Origin: Actinomycetota bacterium | Lineage (GTDB): Bacteria; Actinomycetota; UBA4738; HRBIN12 | Assembly: GCA_021325015.1 (NCBI GenBank) | Contig: JAJPHY010000117.1 | Coordinates: 1 to 35,006 of the forward strand | Length of the DNA: 35,006 bases | Direction: 5' to 3' | Shown: one piece after another, positions 12,654-20,541 of the stretch | Layout of the letters: each line of letters opens with the position of its first letter | Numbering within the stretch: the first letter of the stretch is position 1 | Program-made: the position numbers and the translations under genes | The notes under the pieces: model-generated | Databases searched by the model: none | The model's input: only the letters and a program-made list of their open reading frames with translations | Told to the model about the DNA's origin: nothing

Positions 12654-13427
12654 GTGGCGGAGTTCGTACGGCTCGAACGACGGGGCGAGGTCGCCACGAT
12701 CAGGCTGGATCGCCCGCCCGCGAACGCGATGAACGAGCGGCTCTCCCTCGACCTGTGGGACGCGGCGCGAGAGGTGAGCGCCGACGACACGATCCGGGCG
12801 GTGGTGATCTGGGGCGGCGAGCGGGTCTTCGCCGCCGGGGCCGACGTCAGGGAGATCGCCGACCTGGGCCCGAGGGAGATCGAGCCGGTGGTCGGAGCCC
12901 TCGAGAGCGCGCTCCGGCACATCGAGGCCATCCCGAAGATCGTGATCGCGGCGATCAACGGCTACGCGCTGGGCGGCGGGTGCGAGCTCGCGCTCTGCGC
13001 GGACTTTCGATTCGCGGCGTCCGACGCCCGTCTCGGGCAGACCGAGGTCCGGCTGGGGATCGCTCCCGGCGCCGGCGGGACCCAGCGGCTTCCCCGTCTG
13101 ATCGGCCTCCAGCGGGCCCGGGACCTGATCTTCTCCGGCCGGATCGTGACGGCGGAGGAAGCGCACGCGATCGGTCTTGTGGACCGCGTGCTGGCCCCCT
13201 CCGAGGTGTACCCGACCGCGCTGGAGGAGGCCGCCCGGTACGCGAGCGGTCCCACGCTCGCGTACCGGGCGGCAAAGATCGCCCTGAACGCCGCCGCGCA
13301 GGGCGATCAGGTGCGCGGTCTGGAGGTCGAGCGGGAGGTTTTCCGCGACCTGTTCGCAACGGAGGATCAGAAAGAGGGCATGCGCGCGTTCCTCGAGAAG
13401 CGCGACCCGGTGTTCCGGCAGAGGTAG
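12654..13427 (+). CDS. Enoyl-CoA hydratase/isomerase family protein
   Basis: A 257-residue crotonase-fold enzyme that most likely hydrates trans-2-enoyl-CoA in beta-oxidation or amino-acid breakdown. The oxyanion-hole regions are visible (FAAGADVREIADLG and ALGGGCELALCADFRF), as are both catalytic glutamates of true hydratases: one in GGGCELAL and one in LGQTEVRLGIAPGAGGTQRL. Substrate chain length cannot be told. GTG 12654 is chosen because of the GGGAGGA site at 12644-12650 and fit to the family N-terminus; the frame is open further upstream to 12459, but that stretch looks non-coding. The GNAT gene follows 13 bases later. Confidence 0.92.
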   Translation: MAEFVRLERRGEVATIRLDRPPANAMNERLSLDLWDAAREVSADDTIRAVVIWGGERVFAAGADVREIADLGPREIEPVVGALESALRHIEAIPKIVIAAINGYALGGGCELALCADFRFAASDARLGQTEVRLGIAPGAGGTQRLPRLIGLQRARDLIFSGRIVTAEEAHAIGLVDRVLAPSEVYPTALEEAARYASGPTLAYRAAKIALNAAAQGDQVRGLEVEREVFRDLFATEDQKEGMRAFLEKRDPVFRQR

Positions 13428-13440
13428 TGGGGGTGCAGGC

Positions 13441-13929
13441 GTGAAGGTCAGGCGCGCGACGCCGGAGGACGTGCCGGCGCTGGTGGCGCTGTTCCAGGAG
13501 CTGGATCGGCTCCAGAGCGACTGGCGGGTGTTCACACCCCGGCCGGGGTTCTACGACGAGGTCGGGGAGAAGTATCGGCAGGCGATGGGCAACGAGAACT
13601 CCGTCGTGCTGGTGGCGGAGGACGACGACGAGGTGGTGGGAATGGCCTACGGGGAGGTTCGCATCCCCTCTCGGTTCTCCGACGAGCGGGCCCTGGAGCT
13701 CTCGGGGGTCGTGGTCCGGGCCGGATACCGGGGACGGGGGGGCGGGCGGGCGCTGGTCAGGGAAGCCGCCCGCTTCGCCGCGGACATCGACGTCGACTGG
13801 GTCGAGCTCAAGACGTTCGCTCCGAACCAGGGGGCCATGACGTTTTGGGAGGACCTGGGGTTCACCCCGCGGGTGGTCCAGCTCACGCAGGCGACGCGAG
13901 CGCTCCTCGAGCGCCTGGAGGCGGACTGA
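13441..13929 (+). CDS. GNAT-family N-acetyltransferase
   Basis: A 162-residue single-domain acyltransferase. It starts with the usual VRRATPEDVPALVALFQEL pattern. The acetyl-CoA-binding motif A is visible as LSGVVVRAGYRGRGGGRALV, with the R-G-x-G-G-G phosphate loop. The later FAPNQGAMTFWEDLGFTPR segment is the motif B 'A..FYE.LGF' element. The acceptor substrate (protein, amine or small molecule) cannot be predicted. GTG 13441 follows a GGGGG stretch at 13429-13433, and the gene is probably co-transcribed with the hydratase. Confidence 0.9.
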   Translation: MKVRRATPEDVPALVALFQELDRLQSDWRVFTPRPGFYDEVGEKYRQAMGNENSVVLVAEDDDEVVGMAYGEVRIPSRFSDERALELSGVVVRAGYRGRGGGRALVREAARFAADIDVDWVELKTFAPNQGAMTFWEDLGFTPRVVQLTQATRALLERLEAD

Positions 13930-14042
13930 GCTCGAGCCGCCCCATCTCGCCGATCGGGAACGAACCGCGCCCCGGAGGCGTTCGAATACCTGATGGCCCT
14001 GTAGCGATGGGCAGGGTCGGACGACATCCATGGAGCGTGGTC

Positions 14043-14249
14043 ATGGCTGAGGAGTCGCTCTTCCGCGGCGCCCGCGTCCGCGAGGTCCCGCGAGCCAACC
14101 GAACCTACCCCTCGGGGCGCGTGTGCGCGGCCGAGGGATGCACCACCAAGCTCTCGATCTACAACCGCTGGCAGTACTGCTGGCAGCACGAACCGGTGCA
14201 CAGCTACGTCGCGCGTGGCAAGCGCCGGTCCCGCAAGGAGGCCGCCTGA
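14043..14249 (+). CDS. Small zinc-finger protein (CCCH type), 68 residues
   Basis: A tiny basic protein with one probable zinc site: C28-x4-C33-x12-C46-x2-H49, in the context CAAEGCTTKLSIYN then CWQHE. The 'GC.T.LS.YN....C..H' arrangement recurs in small uncharacterised actinobacterial proteins. The C-terminus is strongly basic (RGKRRSRK), which would suit nucleic-acid binding. ATG 14043 has GGAG at 14032-14035. An in-frame ATG at 14007 would add 12 residues. The function is unknown; a DNA- or RNA-binding regulator is a guess. The 113-base gap before it (13930-14042) has an AATACC hexamer but no firm promoter. Confidence 0.6.
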   Translation: MAEESLFRGARVREVPRANRTYPSGRVCAAEGCTTKLSIYNRWQYCWQHEPVHSYVARGKRRSRKEAA

Positions 14250-14252
14250 GGG

Positions 14253-14270
14253 CGGGGCCCGGCGGCCCCG
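14253..14270 (+). terminator. Strong hairpin just after the small zinc-finger gene
   Basis: CGGGGCC-CGGC-GGCCCCG gives a perfect 7-bp GC stem with a 4-base loop, beginning 4 bases after the stop. No U-tract follows. It could terminate the small-protein mRNA or protect its 3' end. Confidence 0.45.
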
Positions 14271-14350
14271 CGGTCGCGGCCGGTAAAGCCCGGAGCGGGG
14301 CTCGCCGACAACCAAAGCAGGGCCGCTCCCCCCGACCGCGCCCCTCGCGG

Positions 14351-14533
14351 ATGCCAGCAGACACCGATCCGACGCCCGCCATGCGGGAGGGCGAGTGCCC
14401 CTTCTGCGAGCGGGTGGTGCTCGTGTACGAGGACCCTCCCTGCTGCCCGCTGTGCGCGTGTCCCCTGGAGGAGGTTCGGATGCGACCCCACCGGTGGCCG
14501 GGCGACCGTCCAAGGTCCTCCGACGAGCCCTAG
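14351..14533 (+). CDS. Tiny zinc-ribbon protein, 60 residues
   Basis: A 60-residue open frame with two cysteine knuckles: ECPFCERVV and, eleven residues after the first pair, CCPLCACPLEE. This is a compact zinc-ribbon arrangement. ATG 14351 is the likely start; ATG 14381 (MREGECPFC) would give a 50-residue form starting just before the first knuckle. No clear ribosome site or TAnnnT hexamer is seen for either. The four regularly spaced Cys codons in a stretch otherwise without a gene, with normal GC-rich third positions, support coding. The function is unknown. Confidence 0.45.
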   Translation: MPADTDPTPAMREGECPFCERVVLVYEDPPCCPLCACPLEEVRMRPHRWPGDRPRSSDEP

Positions 14534-14548
14534 CGGGGTCGGACCGCC

Positions 14549-14806
14549 TCAGCCGCCTGGAGGCTCGGCAGCAGATCCGCCCCGCACGACCCGGGCGGCG
14601 ATCTCACGCGCCTCCTCCAGCCGACTCCGATCCACGAACAGGCGCACGCCGAGCTCCCAGATCCGGCTGACCACTCCGGGCTCCTTGTACCACCAGACGA
14701 TCCCGGCCCGCTCGAGCTCGCCGGCGATGGCGTTCGCGTGCTCGCGCGTGAACTGACCGAGGTGAACGGTCGTCACCCCCCGATCCGAGCGCCCGTGGGA
14801 GCTCAC
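14549..14806 (-). CDS. Small uncharacterised protein downstream of pabBC (85 residues)
   Basis: A small soluble protein whose start (GTG 14806) overlaps the pabBC stop, so it is the last gene of the marR-pabBC operon. An in-frame GTG at 14776 behind GGGGGG would give a 75-residue form. The central part, TTVHLGQFTREHANAIAGEL followed by ERAGIVWWYKEPG and VRLFVDRSRLEEAREIAARV, has the alternating strand-helix pattern of DUF2007-like 'putative signal transducing' proteins, in which a residue pair lies at the end of a helix that binds ligands. The similarity is by pattern only. No catalytic motif is seen. Confidence 0.55.
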   Translation of the reverse strand: MSSHGRSDRGVTTVHLGQFTREHANAIAGELERAGIVWWYKEPGVVSRIWELGVRLFVDRSRLEEAREIAARVVRGGSAAEPPGG

Positions 14807-16572
14807 GGCACCACCACCGCCCGTCTCCAACCGCGAAGGGAGCTCACGAGGGCGATCTCGTCCGCCGTTCGCGCCGCCTCGACCGGGATCGGCCGTTCGA
14901 CCAGGCGCCCGGTCCTGAGCAGCGCGGCTCGCCGCGTGCCCGGGAGGAGACCCGACTCCACGGGCGGGGTGCACCAGACCCCGCCTTGTCGAACCGCCAG
15001 GTTGGCGATGGTCGACTCGGTGACCTCGCCACGCGTGTTCACGAGCAGCACGTCGTCGACGTCCGGCCGCCGGGAGCGTCGGCGGTCGTAGGGTTCGCGC
15101 AGGCTGGTCTTGTGGTACAGCCACACGTCGGCGGGGTCGACCGGCTCCGGGTCGATCGCCACGCGCAGCGGGGTATCCAGGACGGCCGGCATCGGCCCGG
15201 TCTCCGTGCGGACCCGGCCCGACCGGGAGAGCGCGAGCCTCACCCGCGCCGGCTCCGCGATTCCCCTCGCGGCCATCTCGAGGGCCGAGGCGATCGCGGC
15301 GGGATCGTGGCGAAAGCCGAAGTACCGTGCCGAGTCCTCCAGGCGCTCCAGGTGCTCCTCGAGGTCCGTATACCCCGTGTCCGGGCGGTGTTCGAGGGTC
15401 TCGACGAGCTCGAACTCCGGTCGGCGGGCCGTGAGCACCCGGGCCTTCGCGAGCGCCTCGTCGTGCTCGTGACGGGGGCAGGAGTCGTGCGTGATCCCCC
15501 CGCCGGTCCCGTACTCGGCGACCCCGGTCGTCGGGTCCAGGACCAGGGTCCGGATGGCCACGCTGAACAGGGCGCGGGGGCCCGTCGCGGAGGCCGGCCC
15601 AACGTACCCGATGGCGCCGGTGTAGACGCCCCTCGGGGAGTCCTCGAGATCGGCGATGATCCGCATCGCCGCGACCTTCGGGGCCCCCGTCACCGAGCCG
15701 CTGGGGAACAGGGCCCGGAACACATCGAGCAGTCCCCGGCGCGGGCCGAGCCTGGCGGCGATCGTCGAGGTGAGCTGCCAGACGGTCTCGTATCGCTCCA
15801 CGTCGAACAGGCCCGTGACCTCGACGCTCCCGGGTCGCGCGACGCGACCGAGATCGTTGCGGAGCAGATCCACGATCATCGCGTTCTCCGCGCGATCCTT
15901 GTCCGAGGCGAGGAGCGCTCGGGCCGTCCGCCGGTCCTCGGCAGGCCACCGCCCCCTGGGCGCCGTGCCCTTCATCGGCCTCACGATGATCCGGTCGCCC
16001 TCGAGCCGGAAGAAGAGCTCCGGCGAGGCCGAGAGCACGCGGTGACGCCCGAGGTCGAGGAAGGCCGAGTAACGGGCCCGCTGGGCCAGGCACAGGCGCC
16101 GGTAGAGCTCGTGCGGGTCCTCCCCGACGTGGGCGCGGAGTCGGAATGTGAAGTTCACCTGGTAGATCTCGCCGGCCGCGATCAGCTCCCGGATGCTCCC
16201 GACCGCGGCGTCGTACCGCGCGCGGTCGACCGAGGGTGCCCAGACCGGATCCATCGGTACCCCGTCCGCGGGGCGGGCTTCGAGGGGATCGAGCTCGACT
16301 CGCCGCTCGAAGGTCCCGAAGCACACGAGCGGCAGATCGAGCGGGGAGTCGGGCGCGGGTGGTCGGACGCGCAGGGCTGGGTTCAGGCCGGGCGCCGCCT
16401 CGTAGGCGACGAAGCCGGCCGCCCACAGGCCGCGCGCGGTCGCCTCCGCGACCGCCTCGATCGCAGCCGGGACGTCCGCCGGGCGGCGGGCCTCGACGAT
16501 GCCGGTCAGGCCGCGAAGGCCGAACGCGCGTTCGGCACCGGGGGTCAGGTCGTCGAACCGAACCGCCGTCAC
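14803..16572 (-). CDS. pabB: Fused aminodeoxychorismate synthase component I / aminodeoxychorismate lyase (PabB-PabC)
   Basis: A 589-residue bifunctional enzyme of p-aminobenzoate (folate) synthesis. The PabB domain (residues 1 to about 375) has the chorismate-binding motifs VRPMKGTAPRG (K201, the catalytic lysine of PabB), RAENAMIVDLLRNDLGRV, FPSGSVTGAPKVAAMRI and YGTGGGITHDS. The PabC domain (about 385-589) is a class IV PLP enzyme: the PLP lysine is K488 in WLYHKTSLREPY, and VTESTIANLAV binds the cofactor phosphate. So chorismate plus ammonia is converted to aminodeoxychorismate and then to PABA and pyruvate in one protein. The glutaminase PabA is not in the window. GTG 16572 starts 4 bases after the marR stop, and the downstream small gene overlaps. 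Confidence 0.94.
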   Translation of the reverse strand: MTAVRFDDLTPGAERAFGLRGLTGIVEARRPADVPAAIEAVAEATARGLWAAGFVAYEAAPGLNPALRVRPPAPDSPLDLPLVCFGTFERRVELDPLEARPADGVPMDPVWAPSVDRARYDAAVGSIRELIAAGEIYQVNFTFRLRAHVGEDPHELYRRLCLAQRARYSAFLDLGRHRVLSASPELFFRLEGDRIIVRPMKGTAPRGRWPAEDRRTARALLASDKDRAENAMIVDLLRNDLGRVARPGSVEVTGLFDVERYETVWQLTSTIAARLGPRRGLLDVFRALFPSGSVTGAPKVAAMRIIADLEDSPRGVYTGAIGYVGPASATGPRALFSVAIRTLVLDPTTGVAEYGTGGGITHDSCPRHEHDEALAKARVLTARRPEFELVETLEHRPDTGYTDLEEHLERLEDSARYFGFRHDPAAIASALEMAARGIAEPARVRLALSRSGRVRTETGPMPAVLDTPLRVAIDPEPVDPADVWLYHKTSLREPYDRRRSRRPDVDDVLLVNTRGEVTESTIANLAVRQGGVWCTPPVESGLLPGTRRAALLRTGRLVERPIPVEAARTADEIALVSSLRGWRRAVVVP

Positions 16573-16576
16573 GCCG

Positions 16577-17014
16577 TCAGCGTGACGCGGGCTCGGCGGT
16601 TTTGTCGAGTCCGGCGAGGACGGGTTCCATCTGCCTGGCCAAGCGAGCGAGCTCCTCGAGGTGGCGCTCCGACAGGCTCTCCAGCACCCGCAGGCCGCGG
16701 GGGGTGAGCGAGAGCCGGACAACCCGCCCGTCGACCCGGTCGCGTCGCCGCCGTATCAGCCCTGCGGCCTCGGCTCGATCCACGAGCCCCACGGCGCTGT
16801 TGTGGCGGAGCAGGAGGTAGCCGGCGACGTCGGCGATGGTCGGCCCGTTGGGATCCGGGTGTCCCCGGATGGCGAGGAGCAGTTGGTGTTGGGAAGGGGT
16901 GAGGCCGGAGGTGACCGCCTGCTCCTCGCTCCACCGGAGGAACCGCCGCAGCCCCGTTCGCAGGCCGAGGAGACGCTGATAGTCCTCGTCGGTGACGGTT
17001 CGGCTCGGCGGCAC
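16577..17014 (-). CDS. MarR-family transcriptional regulator
   Basis: A 145-residue winged-helix repressor. The pattern is typical of MarR: GLTPSQHQLLLAIRGHP, then GPTIADVAGYLLLRHNSAVG (recognition helix), LVDRAEAAGLIRRRRD and the wing RVDGRVVRLSLTPRG, with a C-terminal dimerisation helix. GTG 17014 is chosen because TACGAT lies 6 bases upstream with no ribosome site (leaderless), and the codons further upstream lie inside the palindromic operator. It is the first gene of marR-pabBC and diverges from the ClC transporter. The ligand is unknown; a phenolic acid or PABA-related compound is possible given pabBC, but that is inference. Confidence 0.88.
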   Translation of the reverse strand: MPPSRTVTDEDYQRLLGLRTGLRRFLRWSEEQAVTSGLTPSQHQLLLAIRGHPDPNGPTIADVAGYLLLRHNSAVGLVDRAEAAGLIRRRRDRVDGRVVRLSLTPRGLRVLESLSERHLEELARLARQMEPVLAGLDKTAEPASR

Positions 17015-17016
17015 GC

Positions 17017-17037
17017 GTATATCGTATAACGATATAC
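17017..17037. promoter_or_regulatory. Perfect 21-bp palindrome between marR and clc (MarR operator candidate)
   Basis: Arms GTATATCGT (17017-17025) and ACGATATAC (17029-17037) are exact reverse complements around a 3-base centre, ATA. This AT-rich island lies in a 62-base divergent gap and overlaps the -10 hexamers of both genes. MarR regulators bind such palindromes as dimers, so the site probably controls marR-pabBC and the chloride transporter together. Confidence 0.8.
17021..17026 (-). promoter_or_regulatory. TACGAT -10-like hexamer for leaderless marR
   Basis: On the minus strand TACGAT is followed by ATACGC and then the GTG of marR, the same TAnnnT-N6-start arrangement as at zur, mnmA and the EamA gene. 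It lies inside the palindrome, so bound MarR would block its own transcription. Confidence 0.45.
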
Positions 17038-17040
17038 AAT
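17035..17040 (+). promoter_or_regulatory. TACAAT -10-like hexamer for the ClC gene
   Basis: TACAAT overlaps the right end of the palindrome. Transcription would start near 17047, leaving about 30 bases of leader that contain the strong GAGGAGGAG ribosome site at 17064-17072. No clear -35 box is seen. Confidence 0.4.
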
Positions 17041-17076
17041 CACCTCCGGCCTCGCAGGAGGCCGAGGAGGAGCGTC

Positions 17077-18798
17077 GTGGAGACATCGACCCGCCGGATC
17101 GCGATGCTCTGCCTGCTGGCCGCAGTGCTCGGCCTGGCCGGTGGTGGCGCGGCGTGGGTTTTGCTCCGGCTGATCGCCCTGCTCACGAACCTGGCGCTGC
17201 TGCACCGGGTCGGCTGGACGCTCCCGTCGTTTGCGCGGTTCCATCCCGGGCCGCTGGTCGTGCCCGTGGCGGCCGCGGGAGGGCTGATCGTCGCGTTGCT
17301 CGCGAAGTGGTCGCCGGTCATCAAGGGCCACGGTATCCCGGAGGCGATGGAGGCGGTCCTCACCAGGCAGAGCCGCATCTCGCCGCGCGCGGCCGTCGCC
17401 AAGCCGCTCTCGGCGGCGATCGCCATCGGCACCGGAGGGCCGTTCGGTGCGGAGGGGCCGATCATCGTGACCGGGGGTGCGATCGGCTCGCTGATCGGGC
17501 AGATCCTTCCGGTGTCGCCGGCCGAGCGGAAGATCCTGCTCGCGAGCGGCGCGGCCGCGGGCATGGCGGCGACGTTCGGCACCCCGCTCGCCGCGGTGGT
17601 CCTCGCGATCGAGCTCCTGCTGTTCGAGTTCTCGACACGCGCGTTCGTCCCGCTCGTCGTGTCCTCGGCCATCGCCGCGGGCGTGCACTCGGCGCTGTTC
17701 GGCTCGGCTCCGCTGTTCGCCGTCCCGCCGCACGACTACGCGGGCCTGGTCAAGCTGCCGTTCTTCGCGATCCTCGGCCTTCTCTGCGGCCTGCTTGCTG
17801 CTGTCGTGACGAAAGGCCTGTTCGCGATCGAAGCCGGATACCGGCGGCTTCCCGTCTCGGAGTTCTGGCACCCGGTGATCGGCGGCGTCGCGTTCGGGAT
17901 CGTGGGGATGCTCGCGCCGAGGGCGCTCGGCGTGGGGTACGACGCCATCGGCGACGTCCTCGCGGGCAGGCTGGCGCTCGGCGCGCTCGCGGCGCTCGCG
18001 GCGGCCAAGCTGATCGCGTGGTGGCTGGCGCTTGCGTCCGGCACCTCCGGGGGGACGCTGGCGCCGCTGCTCCTGATCGGCGGCTCGTTCGGCGGCATCC
18101 TGGGAACGCTCGCCGCTCGCGCCGTCCCCGGGCTCCACCTCACCCCGGGAGCGGTGGCCCTGGTCGCGATGTCCGCGGTCTTCGGCGCCGCCACGCGGGC
18201 GACGTTCGCCTCGATCGTGTTCCTGTTCGAGCTGACCGGCGACTACCGCGTGATCCTTCCGCTCATGGTGGCGACGGTGCTCGCGACGGTCGTCGCGGCC
18301 GCGCTCTCGAGGGAGAGCATCATGACCGAGAAGCTCCTGCGACGTGGGCTCCGCGTGCACACCCGCTACGAGGTGGACGTGCTCCAGACGACCATGGTCC
18401 GCGACGTCATGACCCGCGAGGTCGAGACGCTGTCGCCGGATACGACCGTCGCCGAGGGACGACGGCGCTTCTCAAACGGTGGCCACGGGGCCTACCCGAT
18501 CGTGGACGGGCAGGGGCGCGTCGCCGGGATCGTGAGCCGAGGCGACCTGTTGCGGCTCCCGGACTCCGACCTGCTGCCGCTTCGCGAGGTGGCGAGCCGA
18601 GACGTCGTCACGGTCGGGCCGGACGACCCGCTCGTCGTGGCGCTCCAGCGGATGTTGGACGACGAGATCGAGCACCTCCCGGTGGTCCTCGACGGGCGCC
18701 TGGTCGGCATCTGCACGCGAACCGATATCCTTCGCGCGCGCCAGCGGCACCTCGACCTCGAGCGTCTCCAGCGCGGCTGGGGGACGGGGGTGCTGTGA
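17077..18798 (+). CDS. ClC-family chloride channel/transporter with C-terminal CBS pair
   Basis: A 573-residue voltage-gated chloride channel family protein. About ten or more hydrophobic helices fill residues 8-420. The selectivity-filter motifs are GHGIP (84-88, His in place of the Ser of the E. coli protein), GAEGPIIVTGG (E126 is the gating glutamate) and SGGTLAP (about 324-330). Retention of E126 fits a proton-coupled exchanger or a gated channel. After the membrane part come two CBS domains (about 450-505 and 515-565; VRDVMTREVETLSPDTTV and GRLVGICTRTDIL), which usually bind adenine nucleotides. GTG 17077 has a strong ribosome site. The gene diverges from marR across a palindromic operator. 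Confidence 0.93.
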   Translation: METSTRRIAMLCLLAAVLGLAGGGAAWVLLRLIALLTNLALLHRVGWTLPSFARFHPGPLVVPVAAAGGLIVALLAKWSPVIKGHGIPEAMEAVLTRQSRISPRAAVAKPLSAAIAIGTGGPFGAEGPIIVTGGAIGSLIGQILPVSPAERKILLASGAAAGMAATFGTPLAAVVLAIELLLFEFSTRAFVPLVVSSAIAAGVHSALFGSAPLFAVPPHDYAGLVKLPFFAILGLLCGLLAAVVTKGLFAIEAGYRRLPVSEFWHPVIGGVAFGIVGMLAPRALGVGYDAIGDVLAGRLALGALAALAAAKLIAWWLALASGTSGGTLAPLLLIGGSFGGILGTLAARAVPGLHLTPGAVALVAMSAVFGAATRATFASIVFLFELTGDYRVILPLMVATVLATVVAAALSRESIMTEKLLRRGLRVHTRYEVDVLQTTMVRDVMTREVETLSPDTTVAEGRRRFSNGGHGAYPIVDGQGRVAGIVSRGDLLRLPDSDLLPLREVASRDVVTVGPDDPLVVALQRMLDDEIEHLPVVLDGRLVGICTRTDILRARQRHLDLERLQRGWGTGVL

Positions 18799-18800
18799 CG

Positions 18801-18814
18801 GGCGCTGGGGCGCC
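18801..18814. terminator. Short hairpin between convergent clc and etfA
   Basis: GGCGC-TGGG-GCGCC, a 5-bp stem with a 4-base loop, lies in the 23-base gap between the two stops and could serve both strands. There is no U-tract. Confidence 0.4.
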
Positions 18815-18821
18815 GAAGGGC

Positions 18822-19772
18822 CTAGCCCCGGCGGCTGCGGATCTCGGCGATCACCTGCGGAACCACGGTGAGGGCGTCGCCCACGACGCCGAGATCGGCC
18901 AGGCGGAAGATCGGGGCGTCGGGGTCCTTGTTGATGGCCACGATTCGCTTGGCGCCCTTCATGCCGACGACGTGCTGGGTGGCGCCGCTGATCCCGACGG
19001 CGATGTAGACCTCGGGCTTGACCGTTCGCCCGGTTTGCCCGATCTGGTAGCTGTAGGGGACCCAGCCGGCGTCGACGACCGCGCGGCTGGCACCGACCGC
19101 CCCTTTCAGCAGGCCCGCGAGCTCCTCGAGGAGGGCGAAGTTCGAGGCCTCCTGCAGGCCCCGACCGCCCGAGACCACCACTCGCGCCTCCTCGAGTCTA
19201 GGGCCGGTGGCCGCCTCCTCGTGACGCTCGACCCGCCGAGGCCAGGGGGAGCCCTGCGGAACCGGCACCGGCTCCACGGTGGCGGTTCCCCCCGACGGCT
19301 CTGCCGCAAAGGACGTCGGTCGAACCAGCACGATCTTGGGATCCGGTCCCTCGAGGGCGACCTCGACGGTCACCGCGCCGCCGAAGATCGGCATCTGCGC
19401 CCGATCGGTCGCGGACAGGTCGGTGGCGTTGCTCATGAGGGTGCTCCCCGTGAGCGCCTGCAGGCGACCGGCCACGTCCCTGGCGTCGTGGGACGTCGAG
19501 AACAGGACGAGGCCGGGTCGGTGCTCCTCGACGAGCCCGGCGAGCGAGAGCGCGGCAGCGTGGCCCAGGGTTTCCGAAAACACGGGGTCGTCGTTCGCGA
19601 AGACCGTGCTGGCGCCGTACGCGCCGAGCGTCTCCGCCGCGGCCGTAGCTCCCGGCCCGAGCGCCACCGCGGCTACGGGGTCCCCGAGAGATCTCGCCTT
19701 GGTCAGGAGCTCCAACGCGACGGGACGTGGCCCCTCGGGGGTGACCTCTGCGTAGACGAAGACCGGGGGCAC
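18822..19772 (-). CDS. etfA: Electron transfer flavoprotein alpha subunit
   Basis: A 316-residue FAD-binding subunit of ETF, which takes electrons from acyl-CoA dehydrogenases. The C-terminal FAD domain is unmistakable: [58 protein letters not shown] followed by [12 protein letters not shown], and [13 protein letters not shown] (the alpha-ETF signature). The N-terminal half starts [10 protein letters not shown], as in the family. GTG 19772 lies one base after the etfB stop, so the two are one operon. It fits with the hydratase and mutase genes of this window in acyl-CoA oxidation. Confidence 0.96.
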
Positions 19773-19773
19773 G

Positions 19774-20541
19774 TCAGAGCACCTTGGCCTCGGCGAGCAG
19801 GTCGACGATGCGCTTCGCCGTGTCCTCGCCCGCCTGAATGACCTCGCCGGCGGCGCGCTCCTGCGCCCGTGTGAGCCCAACCACGCGCTGTGTGGGGGCG
19901 AGGGCCTCGGCCGACAGGCCGAGGTCGGCCAGGGCGAGCCGTTCGACGGGCTTCTGTTTGGCCTGCATGATGCCCTTGAGCGTGGGGTACCTGGGCTCCG
20001 GCGCGCTCCCCGTGACCGTGGCGAGCGCGGGAAGCGGCGCCTCCACGACGTCGAACCCGAGGTCGGTCGGGCGCTCGATGCGGAGCACTCCATCCTCGAC
20101 GGAGAGCGCCCTGGCAAAGGTCGCGCTCGGCAGCTCGAGCAGCTGGGCCACGGTCATCGGGACGGTCCCCGTGGATCCGTCGGTCGACTCGACTCCGGCC
20201 AGGACGAGGTCGAACGGGCGGCGTCGGACCGCCGCGGCGAGCACCCGAGCCGTGGCCAGCGCGTCGGATCCCCGGAGCGCGGGATCAACGACGTGCACCC
20301 CCGCGTGGGCGCCCATCGACAAGCCCTTGCGCAGGGCCGCGCTCGCGGTCTCGGGACCCATCGTGAGGAGGGTGACCTCTCCGCCGTGGGTCTCGACGAG
20401 CCGGAGGCCCGCCTCGACCGCGTACTCGTCGCCGGGGTCGAGCGCGCCCTCGGTTCCCTCCCGAACCACGAGGAACGCGTCGTCGAGCTCCGGGGTGCCC
20501 TGCGGGTCGGGCACGTACTTCACAAGGACCACGACGTTCAT
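19774..20541 (-). CDS. etfB: Electron transfer flavoprotein beta subunit
   Basis: A 255-residue subunit that binds AMP and pairs with EtfA. It begins MNVVVLVKYVPDPQG and has EGALDPGDEYAVEAGLRL, GGEVTLLTMGP, ALRKGLSMGAHAGVHV, LVLAGVESTDGSTGTVP, and the late YPTLKGIMQAKQKPVE, all typical of EtfB. The order etfB-etfA is the usual one. ATG 20541 has a GAGGAG site at 20546-20551; the frame extends upstream without a family match. It diverges from mnmA across 70 bases. Confidence 0.96.
   Translation of the reverse strand: MNVVVLVKYVPDPQGTPELDDAFLVVREGTEGALDPGDEYAVEAGLRLVETHGGEVTLLTMGPETASAALRKGLSMGAHAGVHVVDPALRGSDALATARVLAAAVRRRPFDLVLAGVESTDGSTGTVPMTVAQLLELPSATFARALSVEDGVLRIERPTDLGFDVVEAPLPALATVTGSAPEPRYPTLKGIMQAKQKPVERLALADLGLSAEALAPTQRVVGLTRAQERAAGEVIQAGEDTAKRIVDLLAEAKVL

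Follow-up and report, generated by a model that had tools for sequence, protein, structure and literature searches.

Regulators of the MarR family are classically repressors encoded beside a divergent target gene, and structures of several members (MepR, CouR, MftR and PecS) have been solved in DNA-bound form. Among bacterial ClC proteins, ClcA of Escherichia coli and Salmonella (1kpl, 3ejz and relatives) carries a Voltage_CLC domain with an external gating glutamate (GREGP). EriC and EriC2 of Lactobacillus reuteri are ClCs which influence internal pH and membrane potential, and the passages of that report on these proteins name no MarR regulator and describe eriC and eriC2 as seemingly differently regulated (PMC6909576). 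Here we describe a locus joining the two protein types in a 35,006-nucleotide (nt) stretch, hereafter the window, of contig JAJPHY010000117.1 (assembly GCA_021325015.1) from an Actinomycetota bacterium, where marR and clc diverge from a gap that holds a perfect palindrome. The two genes probably form a module in which MarR would repress both through the palindrome, and which would have arrived in the genome as a whole, at a position between etfA and pabBC. The locus shares with the classic MarR arrangement the winged-helix fold of the regulator, a palindrome of about 20 base pairs in the divergent gap and probable autorepression, but differs in having a ClC anion transporter as partner, and the window MarR shares 17-26% sequence identity with the solved MarR proteins listed.

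The palindrome and its conservation with marR and clc

The marR gene (16577-17014, reverse strand, GTG start at 17014-17012) encodes a 145-amino-acid (aa) MarR-family regulator (Pfam MarR_2, 1.7e-13; 51 bits against a cut-off of 27). Its AlphaFold model has a predicted local distance difference test (pLDDT) score of 92 and MarR proteins as top PDB fold matches, with MepR, CouR, MftR and PecS also among the matches, and none of the NCBIfam equivalog cut-offs was reached (best HpaR, 27.3 bits against 121.2). The divergent clc gene (17077-18798, forward strand, GTG start at 17077) encodes a 573-aa ClC chloride channel/exchanger, with Pfam matches to Voltage_CLC (1.2e-86) and to two CBS domains (3.2e-31); an earlier note made from the sequence had read it as a ClC exchanger with a CBS pair. 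The same note had recorded a perfect palindrome in the 62-nt gap between the genes, and this was located at 17017-17037, where the candidate operator GTATATCGTATAACGATATAC consists of two perfect nine-base arms around a 3-nt spacer (GTATATCGT-ATA-ACGATATAC) and ends two bases short of the marR GTG. The family core, ATCGT-N3-ACGAT, lies at 17021-17033. Arms of at least nine bases arose in 6/5000 dinucleotide shuffles of the gap. Read by eye, a putative marR -10 element (TACGAT, 17026-17021, reverse strand) falls inside the palindrome six bases before the GTG, so that a leaderless marR mRNA is likely, and a putative clc -10 element (TACAAT, 17035-17040, forward strand) overlaps the palindrome edge, with a Shine-Dalgarno-like AGGAGG shortly before 17077 on the same strand. 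The palindrome would thus cover both -10 hexamers, as previously claimed, but a promoter scan detected no sigma-70 site with a -35 element and hence lends neither hexamer support.

Comparison against the 27 genomes of the order revealed a close MarR orthologue in the own genome only (next best E 9.1e-10), and no match was found in the viral contigs searched. Among 396 genomes of the phylum, thirty-seven match the window MarR at E 1e-8 or better. The fourteen best other proteins (42-66% identity in alignment A1) form a distinctly closer group than the remainder. Twenty phylum loci, comprising these fourteen and six others, were inspected. A ClC gene adjoins marR in 12/14 of the best loci (exceptions L100 and L105), divergently in 8/12, and in none of the remaining six. 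Near copies of the window site occur in the divergent gaps of five loci (L104, L106, L107, L108 and L109), and degenerate ones in three (L101, L102 and L110). Three of these loci (L107, L108 and L109) have the operator in duplicate 5' of marR, as overlapping copies offset by 13 nt, which would fit two bound dimers.

An independent panel of relatives in named genomes was compiled by a contig scan with alignment A1, from which the best 80 of 441 relatives (L149-L228) were retained. These are mostly Actinomycetota, many of them named Acidimicrobiaceae or Acidimicrobiales, with a few labelled Acidobacteria or Thermoanaerobaculia; one locus (L196) appears to lie on the same contig as L101 of the phylum set, the two contigs being equal in length and their ClC proteins 100% identical. 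With flanks of up to 5 kilobases (kb), a ClC gene was found near marR in 61/80 relatives, divergently in fifty-five, and most of the linked genes lie within about 0.4 kb of marR. By comparison, none of 29 control loci, taken around other MarR genes in the order with 1.5-kb flanks, includes a ClC gene. The core is present at nine or ten of its ten bases in 47/55 divergent panel gaps, and the best score in the 27 control upstream regions recovered is 7/10. A second count, restricted to the sequence between the two genes, gave 46/55 gaps, and in these forty-six sites T-5, C-4, G+4 and A+5 are invariant. The link between marR and clc through the palindrome, put forward in the earlier note for this one genome, therefore extends with its site across distant genomes, and the palindrome is very probably the MarR operator which joins the two genes.

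The site is also rare. Searched for elsewhere in the genome, as the earlier note had proposed, the core has a single copy in 2,615,318 bases, at the window site, and a 19-mer with sixteen specified bases and up to three mismatches occurs in two places, with no mismatches in the window and three in the other. With up to two mismatches, the 19-mer was matched in 9/61 genomes (the own genome and sixty relatives) and in 0/16 other genomes of the same family. Twelve other genomes were scanned for TATCGT-N3-ACGATA with one mismatch allowed, and nineteen sites were found. All five exact sites (G074, G170, G257, G140 and G060) are at the marR-clc locus, as are five of the fourteen one-mismatch sites, with one more (G052) beside a marR without ClC.

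Several observations weigh against a dedicated marR-clc module. The other 8/14 one-mismatch sites are situated elsewhere in the genomes scanned. The eighty panel relatives are a non-random sample, having been retrieved with a QHQ peptide pattern and retained in order of similarity; 19/80 have no ClC gene within the set distances, although some of these contigs end close by, and the core scores below 9/10 in 8/55 divergent gaps. One phylum genome (G131, L105) has the MarR without either ClC or site, and two loci carry the site beside other genes. In the first (L171:4288-5432), a near-perfect operator and MarR are accompanied by a divergent GPR1/FUN34/YaaH gene in place of ClC, from a family of the acetate transporter type. 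In the second (L100:440-1286), an operator-like site lies 3' of marR, just before a Pterin_4a dehydratase gene, and no ClC was seen. Two further loci with this MarR type but no ClC lie beside molybdopterin/nitrate reductase genes (L157, by Pfam) and nitrate-reductase-type genes (L217, with narH/narI read by eye), and no single common alternative partner was found among the loci without ClC. In L173, an upstream fragment was read by eye as the start of a ClC, without a Pfam hit.

ClC classes and the target of the candidate operator

The linked ClC proteins include long, CBS-bearing types (GHGIPE, GAEGPII), which differ strongly among themselves, as well as short types (LGxPGD, GPEAPLV). The same regulator type thus accompanies deeply different ClC classes. 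The window ClC retains the external gating glutamate (GAEGP) and contains the GHGIPE motif. Compared with ClcA, it has two CBS domains following the transporter domain, a histidine for the serine of GSGIP and, in the alignment to ClcA structures, a leucine for the internal proton glutamate E203 (ClcA numbering), so that it may be either an exchanger or a channel. E203 of ClcA is also given in the L. reuteri report (PMC6909576). The window protein does not reach the NCBIfam cut-off for ClcA (191.7 bits against 350). The operator core is absent from the surroundings of a second, distant ClC gene of the same genome (G000:C22:28500-29939, L069; 35% identity). Fluoride export is a property of some bacterial ClCs, and the window protein could on this basis be a fluoride exporter controlled by a MarR that responds to fluoride or halide stress. 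This is highly improbable, considering that its motifs are GAEGP and GHGIPE, and not those of fluoride ClCs, and that Rfam gave no match in 13500-20500, which also ruled out a fluoride riboswitch at the locus.

A single site in a divergent gap cannot tell which side it serves, and in many relatives the candidate site lies close to the marR start. MarR might therefore repress only itself, with clc merely sharing the gap. Two loci in which marR lies 3' of clc on the same strand bear on this. The site is at the clc start in one of them (L111, G060); in the other (L103, G063), where the clc start codon is uncertain, it lies at the start or upstream of it. As the site precedes clc and not marR in this arrangement, clc appears to be a target and the site not only autoregulatory; the persistence of the linkage across different ClC classes argues in the same direction, and autoregulation alone is unlikely. 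Under joint control of both genes, a MarR dimer would bind the palindrome, covering the likely -10 elements of both genes and abutting the marR start, and would repress clc and marR. A signal, most likely an acid or proton load or an anion, would then release MarR, upon which ClC and more MarR would be made.

pabBC and the origin of the junction

Behind marR, on the reverse strand, lie pabBC (14803-16572), encoding a fusion of aminodeoxychorismate synthase I and a class IV aminotransferase (PabB-PabC; Chorismate_bind and Aminotran_4), and a gene for an 85-aa protein 3' of it (14549-14806), which has only a sub-threshold DUF2007 match. Four nucleotides separate marR from pabBC, and pabBC overlaps the 85-aa gene by GTGA, in agreement with the tightly spaced row described previously. 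From this row and the adjoining clc the earlier note had suggested a response to an aromatic acid or to acid stress, with feedback linked to p-aminobenzoate (PABA) as an attractive idea. Under this idea MarR would sense PABA or another benzoate and control pabBC as its main target, with ClC as a co-regulated acid-stress gene. Besides the spacing, the suggestion has in its favour that some MarR structures among the fold matches (e.g. 7kfs and 7kjl) bind benzoate or salicylate, and that the site of L100 lies ahead of a Pterin_4a gene. However, pabBC is next to marR in 0/80 panel and 0/20 phylum loci, and neither marR nor clc occurs in the stretches inspected around pabBC in fourteen family relatives. 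The Pterin_4a gene has no convincing counterpart in the other loci, and a folate link through it was set aside. With the neighbourhoods tested in both directions, the PABA link was rejected, and very little credence can be given to it; of the two neighbour pairs proposed in the earlier note, marR-clc is conserved among the relatives whereas marR-pabBC is not, an outcome which that note had itself named as refuting its proposal.

Orthologues of pabBC (57-64% identity) occur in 15/27 genomes of the order, including the own genome, all of them within the family of the window. The order etfB-etfA-pabBC is found in 5/14 family relatives (L135, L136, L137, L144 and L148), while in 7/14 (L139-L143, L146 and L147) mnmA is directly 5' of pabBC; the contigs of the other two (L138 and L145) start inside or near pabBC and are uninformative on neighbours. 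A homologue of the 85-aa protein follows pabBC in 3/14 relatives (L136-L138; 66-72% identical by tblastn). In the window, mnmA, etfB and etfA (ETF/ETF_alpha by Pfam; 18822-19780 with approximate start, reverse strand) lie on one side and pabBC, the small gene, gnat, ech and fur on the other, with marR-clc exactly in between, 23 nt from etfA and 4 nt from pabBC. The match of the flanking gene order to that of the relatives makes a binning error unlikely, and the arrangement is most simply explained by the joint insertion of marR and clc between etfA and pabBC; the module was probably acquired horizontally. By this account pabBC and the 85-aa gene would belong to the old neighbourhood, with pabBC a bystander that came to lie 3' of marR through the insertion. 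The GC contents of marR (0.717) and clc (0.721) do not differ from those of pabBC (0.732) and etfA (0.716), which is a point against transfer inasmuch as composition gives it no support, and composition was dropped as evidence. In the seven relatives with mnmA next to pabBC, etfBA is missing between the two, and the mnmA-pabBC junction has thus changed more than once. Elsewhere in the window, a perfect inverted repeat (13230-13273; arms of 19 bases, loop of 6) lies within an enoyl-CoA hydratase-like reading frame.

With clc pointing in the opposite direction, marR would now be the gene immediately 5' of pabBC and the 85-aa gene, which may be transcribed together with it. In addition to the proposed insertion, pabBC may have been captured by the marR promoter, in which case the release of MarR would matter for folate supply. 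The 4 nt between the marR end and pabBC are consistent with this, as are the placement of clc, which is oriented away from pabBC and comes between pabBC and etfBA, and the finding of no terminator-like site in 16500-19000. On the other hand, pabBC may have a promoter within marR, and in the 7/14 relatives where it is divergent to mnmA it probably has its own promoter. Such a capture is possible but doubtful.

Candidate signals, DUF488 fusions and significance

An acid, or a weak acid or anion, is weakly favoured as the signal. The acidophile genera Aciditerrimonas and Acidiferrimicrobium are present in the panel, and the effect of the L. reuteri ClCs on internal pH and the GPR1/FUN34/YaaH gene of L171 point the same way. 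A histidine at position 43 occurs in 80/80 panel relatives, a count biased by the inclusion of this residue in the search pattern, and in 1/18 order paralogues that extend over it. This MarR could sense pH or anions through conserved histidines near the helix-turn-helix.

In 18/80 panel relatives (L153, L154, L158, L161, L165, L174, L178, L181, L182, L183, L186, L188, L200, L203, L206, L218, L225 and L228) MarR is fused in frame to a DUF488 domain, giving proteins of 268-278 aa, and Pfam detected both domains in all six fusions scanned (L182, L153, L186, L228, L174 and L225). Nine further panel loci encode DUF488 elsewhere in the stretch, and none was found at the 29 control MarR, 14 pabBC and 20 phylum MarR loci. 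In the own genome, DUF488 genes are located on two other contigs and the window MarR is unfused.

Among the titles and abstracts of open-licence papers searched, neither a MarR-ClC pair nor a MarR-DUF488 fusion was described. The conserved MarR-ClC pair follows a familiar general design, one not found described for these partners in that literature. We tentatively suggest a dedicated ClC switch widely shared among actinobacteria, which would combine a MarR subfamily, a fixed ATCGT-N3-ACGAT operator and interchangeable ClC classes in a mobile module, with a fused DUF488 domain as a sensor or effector in one branch. The tight spacing of marR and pabBC, which appears to be an insertion scar, illustrates that a tight operon can be a poor guide to function. 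Bacterial ClCs serve as models of ion transport, and the regulation of their genes is little covered in the literature searched. With its defined site, the conserved regulator provides a handle on when cells need their ClC, through whatever releases MarR.

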